Assembly: GCA_017619835.1 (NCBI GenBank)
Contig: JAFZRN010000014.1
Coordinates: 48,237-112,236, forward strand
Reading direction: 5' to 3'
From: Eubacterium sp.
GTDB lineage: Bacteria; Bacillota; Clostridia; Lachnospirales; Lachnospiraceae
Length of the DNA stretch: 64,000 nucleotides
Both the position numbers and the translations under genes were made by a program. A model generated the notes under the pieces. It did no database searches. It was given only the letters and a program-made list of their open reading frames with translations, and was not told the origin of the DNA. Below are positions 6,793-63,891 of this stretch, piece after piece (positions within the stretch are counted from its first letter, which is position 1; each line of letters begins with the position of its first letter).

Positions 6793-6868
6793 ATATCGTA
6801 CATTTTTTACAAAAATTACACATATTGTCGTTGTAATTATCAATATAAAATGATAAAATACATATATA

Positions 6869-6962
6869 AATATTCGGCAAAGCAGGAGTGATCCTGTGAC
6901 GCAAAGCTATAGGACCTTGGAATCTAGGGGTGAGAGCTTATATCCCAAGGCAGCCAGTTGCA
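6869..6962 (+). promoter_or_regulatory. Cyclic di-GMP-I (GEMM-I) riboswitch
   Basis: Shows the hallmark order of the GEMM-I aptamer: GGCAAAG (6876-6882), a CAGGA/TCCTG stem closed by a GTGA GNRA tetraloop (6883-6896), the conserved GACGCAAAGC (6898-6907), a second stem CCTTGG/CCAAGG (6915-6920 with 6954-6959), and the closing GCCAGTTGC strand (6952-6962 region). An intrinsic terminator follows at 6984-7020, so control of the downstream pilin-like gene is probably by c-di-GMP-dependent termination. The direction (on or off) cannot be told by eye. Confidence 0.88.
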
Positions 6963-6983
6963 TTATACGTATTTTGAATTTAT

Positions 6984-32319: not shown

Positions 32320-32330
32320 AATTTTAAATA

Positions 32331-32438
32331 ACTCAGGGCAGGGTGTAATTCCCGACCGGCGGTATAGCCCGCGAGCTGCTTTGCAGCAGATTCTGTTAGA
32401 TTCAGAAGCCGACAGTATAGTCTGGATGTGAGAGTATA
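32331..32438 (+). promoter_or_regulatory. FMN riboswitch (RFN element)
   Basis: Carries the diagnostic strings of the RFN aptamer: CTCAGGGCAGGGTG, AATTCCCGACCGGCGGTA, AGCCCGCGAGC, a variable hairpin (GCTGCTTTGCAGC), GAAGCCGACAGT and AGTCTGGATG. A terminator follows at 32447. It controls ribD-ribE-ribBA-ribH: FMN binding should favour the terminator and lower riboflavin synthesis. Confidence 0.97.
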
Positions 32439-32446
32439 TAGCAGAC

Positions 32447-54744: not shown

Positions 54745-54757
54745 TCTATATCCGCGA

Positions 54758-54932
54758 GCAAGCTATATAGCGATTACGAACACTCGCTTTCTCGGCTCTG
54801 CTTTCGCACGGTGCGGGTCCCCTAGGCGAAACTTCGCTCTCGCTTCGTGCTTTGCACTCGCGAATCGCTAAGTGAACAGGCCCGCAACGGCCTCGAAACC
54901 TAGTTTCGTAAATCGCTTATATAATAGCTTGC
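54758..54932 (-). repeat. Structured intergenic element E1 (core on minus strand)
   Basis: An element of 175 bases in the argD-M18 gap. Outer arms GCAAGCTATATAGCGATTACG (plus two more bases, 54758-54780) and 54905-54932 are imperfectly complementary. Inside, read on the minus strand, lie TTTCGAGGCCGTTGCGGG, a TAGCGATTC-CGAG block, CGAAGCGAGAG, CTAGGGG and CGCACCGTGCG. The core 54819-54872 matches elements E2 (62843-62995) and E3 (62667-62831), while the outer arms do not match between copies. No coding potential is seen, and GC is higher than in the neighbours. Confidence 0.85.
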
Positions 54933-54981
54933 CACGATTAAATAATTCAGTTAAATTATTGTATTTTAATAAGGAGACACC

Positions 54982-61777: not shown

Positions 61778-62608
61778 ATGAAGAACACAAGTGTAACATT
61801 TAAGGAAATGAAGAAAAAGGGCGAGAAGATATCAATGCTCACAGCATATGATTATTCCACAGCCAAGCTTGTTGATGAAGCTGGGATCAACGGTATTCTC
61901 GTTGGTGATTCACTGGGTAATGTAATGCTTGGATATCCCGATACTGTATCGGTTACCATGGAAGATATGATCCATCATGGTGCTGCAGTTGCAAGAGGAG
62001 CCAAGAATTCACTTGTTGTAATAGATATGCCTTTTATGTCTTATCAGGCTAGTGTTTATGATGCTGTAGTAAACGCCGGAAGACTTATGAAGGAAGGAAG
62101 AGCAGGAGCTATCAAGCTTGAAGGCGGCGAGGAGATCATCCCTCAGGTTGAAGCTATCGTAAAGGCCAGCATCCCTGTAATGGGCCATATAGGTCTTACG
62201 CCTCAGTCCATCAATACAATGGGCGGCTACAAGGCTCAGGGCAGAGATATCGCATCAGCAAAGAAGCTTCTCAGAGATGCAAAGCTCCTTGAAGAAGCCG
62301 GTGCATTTGCGATAACACTTGAATGCGTACCCGCAGACCTTGCAACATACCTTTCTGAGCAGATTTCGATCCCGACTATCGGAATCGGTGCCGGAGCAGG
62401 AACAGACGGCCAGATCCTCGTATATGCTGATATGCTTGCTATGTTCAGCGACTACAGACCTAAGTTCGTTAAGAACTTCGCTAACGTAGGAGAAGCTATG
62501 AAGGCAGGCTTCAGAGCATACGATGAAGAAGTAAAGGCCGGAACATATCCCGCAGCTGAGCATACCTACGCAATCGATCCCGAAGTCTTCGCAGAGGCCA
62601 TCAAGTAA
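61778..62608 (+). CDS. panB: 3-methyl-2-oxobutanoate hydroxymethyltransferase
   Basis: A 276-residue enzyme making ketopantoate from 2-oxoisovalerate and methylene-tetrahydrofolate, the first committed step to pantothenate. Strings [68 protein letters not shown] and [15 protein letters not shown] are typical. AGGGAGGA precedes the ATG. The 410-base gap to panC holds elements E3 and E2. Confidence 0.97.
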
Positions 62609-62666
62609 AAAGGCAGTTTAATTAAGGCATTTTAATTAAGGCAGTTTTAAATATTTTTAAATATTT

Positions 62667-62831
62667 CCAACGGACGCGATGTTTTCATATTCCCCTCATT
62701 CGGCACGTCTTTCGACCAGTTTGGGCACCCCTAGCAGTTCTAAGCTCTCACTTCGCCTAAAGGCTCGTGAATCGCTAAGAACTGAGACCCAAAATGTCCT
62801 TATGAGGGAAAATGAAATCCATCGCTGTTGG
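62667..62831 (-). repeat. Structured intergenic element E3 (core on minus strand)
   Basis: Outer arms 62667-62700 (CCAACGGACGCGATG..., CCCCTCATT) and 62801-62831 (TATGAGGGAAAATGAAATCC then ATCGCTGTTGG) are imperfectly complementary. Read on the minus strand, the core 62728-62779 has TTAGCGATTCACGAG, GGCGAAGTGAGAG and CTAGGGG. Its inner pairs TTTGGG/CCCAAA and AGTTCT/AGAACT replace GCGGG/CCCGC and ACTT/AAGT of the other copies. No coding potential is seen. It lies immediately after panB and head-to-head with E2. Confidence 0.8.
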
Positions 62832-62842
62832 TACATAGCACA

Positions 62843-62995
62843 GCCATAAAGGTGATAAAAAGACTTTCGAGGCCGTTGCGGGCCTCGGTACTTAGCGATT
62901 CACGAGCGTATGCGAAGTGAGAGTTTAGTATCCGCTAGGGGCCCCGCACCGTGCGAGAGCAGAGCCGAGAAAGTGTTTGTTATCAGCTTTATGGC
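62843..62995 (+). repeat. Structured intergenic element E2 (core on plus strand)
   Basis: Outer arms 62843-62868 (GCCATAAAGGTGATAA..., ACTTTC) and 62969-62995 (GAAAGTG..., TTATCAGCTTTATGGC) are complementary. The core 62891-62941 carries TTAGCGATTCACGAG, GCGAAGTGAGAG and CTAGGGG, flanked by GTTGCGGG and CCCCGCACCGTGCG. It is nearly identical to E1 over the core flanks (for example TTTCGAGGCCGTTGCGGG). It ends 23 bases before the panC start codon, close to its ribosome-binding site, so it lies in the panC leader. Confidence 0.85.
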
Positions 62996-63018
62996 GTACG
63001 ATAAAAAGGAGAACATAC

Positions 63019-63891
63019 ATGGCAACTAAGATCGTAAAGACAGTAGACGAAGTAAGAAAGTACGTAAAGAAATGGAGGAAAGATGGCGAGTCCGTTGGCC
63101 TGGTGCCCACTATGGGGTATCTTCACGCCGGCCACCAGTCCCTCATCAAAAGATCCGTTGAAGATAACGACCACACCGTAGTAAGCGTTTTCGTAAATCC
63201 GATCCAGTTCGGCCCCGGCGAAGACCTTGAAAGCTATCCGAGAGATATGGATCATGATTATGCACTTTGTGATAACACAGGTGCCGACCTTATCTTTAAT
63301 CCGGAGCCTTCGGAAATGTATAAGGATGGTTTTGTTTCTTTCGTTGATATGAACGGACTTACTAATCATCTCTGTGGACTTTCAAGACCTGTTCATTTCA
63401 GAGGAGTTTGTACTGTATGTACCAAGCTTTTTATGATCGTAGGTCCCGACAGAGCCTATTTCGGTCAGAAGGATGCACAGCAGCTTGCCGTTATCAAGAG
63501 AATGGTTAAAGACCTCAATATGCCTCTTGAGATCGTCGGCTGTCCTATCGTAAGAGAATCAGATGGTCTTGCCATGAGCTCCCGTAATACATATATGAAC
63601 GTAGAAGAAAGAACTGCGGCTCTTATCTTAAGTAAGTCCATTAAGCTCGGTGAGGAGCTGATCGATGGCGGAGAGAGGGATGCAGCTGTTATAAAGAGTA
63701 AGATGACAGAGCTTCTTGAATCAGAGCCGATGGCTGATGTGGAGTATGTAGAAGTGGTAAATAATCTTACCATGGAAAGCATTGATGAGATCGAAGGTGA
63801 AGTTCTCGTAGCTATCGCCGTAAGGATTAACAATAAGGTAAGACTTATCGATAACTTTATAAGGAGACCAGCTATGAAAAGTCAAGTATAG
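63019..63891 (+). CDS. panC: Pantothenate synthetase
   Basis: A 290-residue ligase joining pantoate and beta-alanine. The nucleotidyltransferase motif is PTMGYLHAGHQSLI; VFVNPIQFGPGEDLESYPRD, FGQKDAQQLAVI and the KMSKS-like AMSSRNTYM follow. Start at ATG 63019 after AAAAAGGAG; an open frame from 62977 begins inside element E2 and is not used. No panD is seen before the window ends; the last 109 bases hold no clear gene. Confidence 0.96.
   Translation: MATKIVKTVDEVRKYVKKWRKDGESVGLVPTMGYLHAGHQSLIKRSVEDNDHTVVSVFVNPIQFGPGEDLESYPRDMDHDYALCDNTGADLIFNPEPSEMYKDGFVSFVDMNGLTNHLCGLSRPVHFRGVCTVCTKLFMIVGPDRAYFGQKDAQQLAVIKRMVKDLNMPLEIVGCPIVRESDGLAMSSRNTYMNVEERTAALILSKSIKLGEELIDGGERDAAVIKSKMTELLESEPMADVEYVEVVNNLTMESIDEIEGEVLVAIAVRINNKVRLIDNFIRRPAMKSQV

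Follow-up and report, generated by a model that had tools for sequence, protein, structure and literature searches.

A dispersed family of structured repeats includes the head-to-head pair between panB and panC of a Eubacterium sp.

Described systems and the panB–panC locus

HEARO and omega-RNA elements (associated with IscB and TnpB) are mobile structured RNAs that also occur as solo copies, and IS110 mobile elements are associated with a structured non-coding RNA, the bridge RNA. REPINs are short intergenic non-coding repeats, which are present in many copies, form inverted doublets, and are thought to be moved in trans. According to the accessible part of PMC3733652, each half of a REPIN in the REPIN/RAYT system is a palindrome of 20–40 bp, one end of which bears a tag (GTAG or CGTC). 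MRSC-65-2, as described in the accessible part of PMC11109978, is a mobile or repeat structured motif (multicopy, covarying, and oriented inconsistently with respect to its neighbors) that consists of one long stem with UYCCGG repeats.

The DNA analyzed here, hereafter the window, is a stretch of 64,000 nucleotides from a Eubacterium sp. contig. Its panB–panC gap (62609–63018, 410 bases; panB stop at 62608, panC ATG at 63019) is occupied by two element copies, E3 on the minus and E2 on the plus strand, the 5′ ends of which face each other (Table 1). An earlier note on this DNA had described such a pair with a common core, and this was confirmed: TAGCGATTCACGAG, CGAAGTGAGAG, and CTAGGGG occur in identical order in E2 and E3 (read on the minus strand for E3). 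The complementary arms ascribed to each element are also real, those of E2 being 19 nt long and 89% complementary and those of E3 24 nt and 71%. That the arms are private to each element held for E3 versus E2; across the family, it holds mainly for distant copies, several others sharing an arm consensus. The predicted folds reached −72.2 kcal/mol for E2 (z −6.48) and −68.4 kcal/mol for E3 (z −6.94), with 0 of 200 shuffles as low in either case. When the window was searched at E ≤ 0.01 with a covariance model seeded by 43 copies (E3 and E2 among them, E1 not), E3 (126.0 bits), E2 (120.8 bits), and E1 (94.1 bits) were found and nothing further.

Table 1. Element copies in the window and their parts.
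Feature	Position	Strand	Basis
E3, element copy	62667–62831	minus	P1 arms at both ends (62676–62699 / 62802–62825); model match 62692–62813
E3, P4 hairpin GTC-GAAA-GAC with GNRA loop	62707–62716	minus	sequence and model match
Central 11 bases of the pair, flanked by the 5′ arms of E3 and E2	62832–62842		
E2, element copy	62843–62995	plus	P1 arms 62843–62861 / 62977–62995; model match 62857–62976
E2, P4 hairpin GC-GAGA-GC with GNRA loop	62953–62960	plus	sequence and model match
E1, third copy	54752–54936	minus	model match 54784–54906; arm pieces 54754–54772 and 54914–54932; outer ends approximate

The element had not been recognized as belonging to a known family, and the comparison with Rfam 15 yielded no match to it either. 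At the gathering score, the window contained only FMN (32326–32441, plus strand; 110 bits) and c-di-GMP-I (6866–6965, plus strand; 48 bits) riboswitches and tRNA, all outside the element copies. The panB–panC gap gave one weak match at E ≤ 5 (mir-203, 14.6 bits; the cut-off is 65), and the two matches that ten copy loci gave at E ≤ 0.1 (an SRP RNA and a miRNA family) lay away from the copies. HEARO/omega-RNA elements, which had been proposed as a natural comparison, share with this family the RNA-like structured fold, the probable mobility, and the solo copies. However, no Rfam match was obtained at loose thresholds, no adjoining nuclease gene was recognized, and TnpB, the nuclease that was searched for, was not found in 9 of the 24 genomes with at least five copies. 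Furthermore, omega-RNA abuts tnpB, whereas no tnpB was recognized by eye among 663 ORFs neighboring the element. A recombinase as expected for an IS110 bridge RNA, a likewise structured RNA, was not recognized by eye among the ORFs beside the copies either.

The family resembles REPINs in being multicopy, intergenic, and non-coding, and a minority of its copies lie in inverted doublets. REPIN halves, however, are palindromes of 20–40 nt in the accessible part of the source, whereas the halves considered here are multi-helix folds of 150–250 nt; their mates are often of unlike subtypes, and Y1_Tnp (E ≤ 1e-5) was not found in 8 of the 24 copy-rich genomes, some of which are incomplete. Of 11 element copies read in G100, the one genome examined in this respect, seven carry CGTC, the sequence of one REPIN tag, at the 3′ end (G and L handles denote genomes and loci). 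MRSC-65-2, as far as its accessible description goes, shares copy number, covariation, and mixed orientation, but the present fold is built around a three-way junction and includes a GNRA-capped hairpin, instead of being a single stem. In contrast to riboswitches and other cis-regulators, the element has neither a consistent sense position nor related genes next to it. It falls in the broad mobile/repeat structured-motif class of PMC11109978, as that class is set out in the accessible part of the source. In the accessible literature (including PMC11109978, PMC8040213, and PMC2864571, with subscription journals mostly outside coverage), no described member with this fold was found.

Fold, strand, and arms

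Element copies are roughly 150–250 nt long. The plus strand is predicted to fold as an RNA in which the arms form P1 and a three-way junction leads on to P2, P3, and P4. P1 is a long stem with recurrent G·A mismatches, linked via the junction with P2 (NNNGGG/CCCNNN); P3 comprises the near-invariant GCTTAGCGA...GAGCTTAGC plus a variable apical stem, and P4 is a short hairpin capped by a GNRA loop. In alignment A4 (117 distinct copies), 95.0% of the cells pair, compared with 76.9% after shuffling and 28–55% with the partners slid; double-sided changes affect 31 of 37 pairs, in 777 cells versus 223 in the shuffles. In A3 (39 divergent copies, from other genera by handle), the corresponding values are 92.3% versus 63.4% and 32–45%, with double-sided changes in 35 of 37 pairs and in 405 cells versus 121. 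Fitting to the covariance model, as done for A3 and A4, favors the model's own structure; in the unfitted MAFFT alignment A1 (57 rows), double changes were present in 28 of 42 predicted pairs. The covariation of the family is decisive, and it includes the inner pairs of P2 and at the base of P3, to which the earlier note had pointed.

The core pairs of A4 contain 338 G·U versus 65 A·C, and the GNRA loop is present in 115 of 119 copies (A4), 33 of 39 (A3), and 28 of 35 (A5); among the P4 loops of A4, each of the four bases occurs at position N and either purine at position R. Because both the surplus of G·U over A·C and the GNRA loops lie on the plus strand, it is this strand that carries the RNA-like fold, although the G·U excess inside pairs is not significant in A3 (40 vs 25) and A5 (21 vs 18). 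The unpaired letters of the core are under strong constraint. Conserved loops with compensatory stems, read earlier as the mark of a structured RNA, are thus strongly supported by covariation and strand asymmetry.

The arms, too, pair preferentially with their own partners. Among the 149 copies of the 158 matches that flank and duplicate limits left for this comparison, the median pairing score was 19 for own arms and 6 for arms swapped between copies, and own arms beat every control in 109. Mispairs were again unevenly distributed (164 G·U vs 88 A·C; 224 G·A/A·G vs 64 U·C/C·U). Outside the ends of the model, where 150 of the 158 matches could be used under the same limits, pairing was weaker, with 69 copies above the 95% control level. 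There, G·U and A·C numbered 106 and 92 in the genus set (p 0.36) and 46 and 26 elsewhere (p 0.024), and the genus set had 137 G·A versus 53 U·C. At L042, L054, and L102, arrays of short perfect hairpins near the core replace one arm.

Dispersal, pairing, and inversion

E1, E2, and E3 are members of a large dispersed repeat family. Within the genus (61 genomes), BLAST detected the element in 37 genomes and the covariance model in 45, with 0 to 38 copies per genome; further copies, the absence of which would have spoken against the earlier note, do exist in the same and related genomes. The source genome has eight model matches, including a second head-to-head pair (C26:55751–56068). An exact-core pattern matched 108 stretches of the genome collection, and the 80 matches listed were all labeled Lachnospiraceae, Eubacterium sp., or Bacillota, many of them from rumen. 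Judged from these labels, the family of the G-handle genomes would be Lachnospiraceae. In draws of wider scope, 8–9 candidates were scored per genome, so that the counts are lower bounds: at least 34 of 397 genomes in the family draw (model R1), at least 71 of 392 in the order draw (model R2, built from 39 matches in other genera), all of one family and from 38 genera including the own genus, and at least 8 of 398 in the phylum draw. Four of the latter belong to the same family, whereas G1131, of another family, has nine strong matches and three more weakly matching genomes all belong to one further family. Viral contigs (exact core pattern) and plasmids and phages (blastn) gave 0 matches. For the analyses of copies, 128 pattern hits were reduced to 102 with the downstream motif and enough flank and to 91 after removal of near-duplicates; 57 of these entered A1 and 43 entered A2.

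Copies and pairs were searched for at the level of loci in 100 loci, a part of the full set. Of 30 neighbors within 300 nt of each other (A3, A4, and A5), 23 were arranged (−,+), none (+,−), 5 (−,−), and 2 (+,+), although some of the 23 depend on each other (the pairs of L063, L071, and L126 are nearly the same, L332/L338 are one place twice, and those of L111 and L132 probably come from one genome). As (−,+) pairs hold 34 of the 119 A4 matches, most copies are single. The mates in the 17 A4 pairs were unlike, with a mean core distance of 0.347 (which includes the three near-identical pairs at 0.49) compared with 0.263 over all copies, and each mate had its nearest copy elsewhere at a distance of 0.00–0.17. 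With a distance of 0.23, which is below average, E3 and E2 are a milder unlike pair. Six units aligned across both halves, displaying the same two subtypes in either orientation; in one of them, the right core was replaced by another subtype. Given that mates are unlike but closely related to members of other pairs, such unlike pairs appear to have spread as whole units. At L132:5815–5938, the core is of another subtype although the arms closely resemble those of L111, as would be expected if cores had been swapped. In G029, a 500-bp unit (L238:1208–1707, L240:1245–1745) joins the element to a different long hairpin sequence and has GTATAC at its outer ends.

Both neighbors could be called (simple ORF calling) for 80 of the 91 copies. 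Sixty-four copies lay between genes of the same direction, 37 in sense and 27 in antisense, whereas 9 were in convergent and 7 in divergent gaps. The neighbors common to loci, named by eye from their translations, were mostly host genes (pan, leu, pgk-tpi, purH-like, aroE, pheST, and fab), and the larger neighbor clusters comprised signaling and transporter proteins; no mobility gene was recognized by eye in the clusters of the 663 neighbor ORFs. The panB–panC gap was examined in 30 of 56 panC-containing genomes; the core motif was present in 7 (in G000 as a pair), a decayed piece in G028, and none in 22. The gap of G013 may be a deletion, since one arm is kept without the core, and that of G019 (L173) contains a simple hairpin, which has 11-bp arms but lacks the core.

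Several element sites are kept across species. At 3 of 10 orthologous sites, which are those among the fetched loci, the element was inverted in place between close species; its orientation was kept at the other seven, for which host use could be an explanation. Inversion was observed at panBC (G039 vs G009/G055), at leuCD (G037 vs G013; the core is 98% identical when inverted and 54% when aligned directly, and the arm letters moved along), and at aroE (G039 vs G055; 96% inverted, 45% direct). The L285 versus L298/L305 gap, left out of this count, contains different cores in opposite directions. No clean strain-level empty site was found among the relatives of G090, in G013/G037, in G009/G018/G039/G055, or in G010/G014/G045; for G100, the comparison was limited to this one genome of its genus. 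An orthologous gap in G407 has neither core nor hairpin, but is too diverged to serve as an empty site. At L277:~957–1211, G037 carries an insertion of ~250 bp that is absent from G013 and is not a member of the element family. In G006, three copies of ISLre2 (NF033529, 289 bits) with 9-bp target duplications contain the element behind the transposase gene (for example, L168:1588–3352), and a fourth element copy lies outside ISLre2. The duplications belong to the carrier IS, of which the element is probably a passenger.

Mobility and competing explanations

The many copies, their occurrence in either orientation, the recurrence of unlike pairs, and the IS-carried copy all argue for mobility, although no insertion was observed at base resolution. 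Y1 and TnpB are not general movers, because 5 of the 24 copy-rich genomes had neither transposase at E ≤ 1e-5 (G005, G007, G019, G020, and G022, with 9, 11, 10, 34, and 16 copies, respectively; G019 and G022 are incomplete). Copy number correlated weakly and positively with TnpB (rho 0.30, p 0.02), the values for Y1 being rho 0.21 and p 0.10. Two gaps between distant (−,+) copies were considered as candidates for an autonomous parent and rejected; that of L105 contains a 207-aa ORF read as host flavin reductase and that of L077 short ORFs only. The end pattern of one subtype occurred in eight handles (some representing the same genome twice) and only once as facing ends, ~430 bp apart, which turned out to be an already known element unit. 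No terminal repeat is common to the whole family, and no target-site duplication was evident around the individually examined copies. A −10 signal upstream was absent (149 matches vs 153 in the control, 110 copies), and core identity did not differ between sense (median 0.852, n = 28) and antisense copies (0.835, n = 21; p 0.24). Together with the orientation flips, the lack of a promoter signal and of antisense decay makes action on neighboring genes unlikely.

On balance, E2 and E3 are rather probably unlike members of a non-autonomous mobile element family with a structured core that is mobilized in trans. A putative protein encoded elsewhere would recognize the folded core and move or copy the element, and selection on the core would reflect this recognition. 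Copies occupy intergenic gaps in both orientations and can invert in place, and a recurrent composite is the head-to-head pair of two subtypes with the 3′ ends of the structured strands pointing outward; most copies would be inert for the genes next to them. A selfish element whose folded core is recognized in trans appears to be the simplest reading. Of the points raised in the earlier note, the structured fold and the mobility were supported, loop insertion as a general rule and the HEARO type were not, and a role for panC is unlikely. It is tentatively conceivable that the family constitutes a new class of mobile elements, in which folded RNA is part of the mobility machinery and the protein mover is neither Y1 nor TnpB; such a class would comprise structured RNAs, alone or as outward-facing unlike pairs, moved by a candidate protein and spread over one large gut-bacterial family and present in at least one further family in the phylum. 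Irrespective of this, the element is a common repeat of a major family of gut and rumen bacteria, has no name in the sources searched, and folds, with covariation, around a three-way junction. Movement driven by this fold would add an RNA-based mobile element to a short list; otherwise, the family would be a case of RNA-like constraint acting on DNA elements. The family also locates frequent small inversions between housekeeping genes, and its alignments provide a model usable by annotators.

A miniature element of the REPIN/MITE type that acts at the level of DNA, with single-stranded hairpins that a transposase would recognize in trans and without any part for RNA, is a possible but doubtful alternative. 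The head-to-head arrangement is similar to that of inverted REP doublets, some copies have short inverted ends (TTGGCG/CGCCAA in three G320 copies, GTATAC-type in G029), a −10 signal is missing, and the outer arms have little G·U excess in the genus set; moreover, stable G·T, G·A, and GNRA-like loops occur in DNA also. However, the G·U excess of the A4 core and the variation within the GNRA loop fit RNA better, and the copy-rich genomes in which Y1 was not found speak against this kind of transposase. That the copies are genes for trans-acting small RNAs, kept by the host at many loci, is unlikely. The strong constraint on unpaired core letters, the equal conservation in sense and antisense, and the sites kept across species would be in line with it, but copy number ranges from 0 to 38 inside one genus, most panB–panC gaps lack the core motif, unlike pairs recur at several loci, and there is no −10 signal.

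Quite unlikely, too, is a short core that inserts into the loops of pre-existing hairpins (e.g., terminators), so that the arms would belong to the target. In G090 and G100, cores at least about 95% identical over roughly 106–125 bases are flanked by differing arms, and in G090, these arms are self-complementary, one of them with a terminator-like T-run; loop insertion is, therefore, possible in G090. Insertion into terminator loops is, however, weakened by the outer ends in other genomes. Eight of the 11 G100 copies have AACAG outside the arms at the start, and seven of these eight end with CGTC; three G320 copies share their arms and the TTGGCG/CGCCAA end; one arm consensus is common to a number of genus copies; and the diverged orthologous G407 gap has no hairpin. 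From the shared consensus and the conserved ends outside the arms, we take the arms to be, as a rule, part of the element itself and to diverge rapidly under preserved pairing.

That the element acts in cis on panC and similar genes, as an attenuator, riboswitch, or stabilizer in mRNA leaders or operon spacers, is very unlikely: copies often lie directly upstream of a ribosome-binding site and mostly between two genes of one direction, but they do so in both orientations and before unrelated genes, and they were inverted in place at the panBC, leuCD, and aroE sites. A role at the panC ribosome-binding site, next to which the structure had been noted, is likewise unlikely, because 22 of 30 gaps have no core motif and close relatives carry the element inverted; the best reading does not include regulation of panC. 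Directly 3′ of panB, at 62610–62651, the gap in the window also contains three tandem 14-nt copies of a AAGGCAGTTTAATT-like unit.
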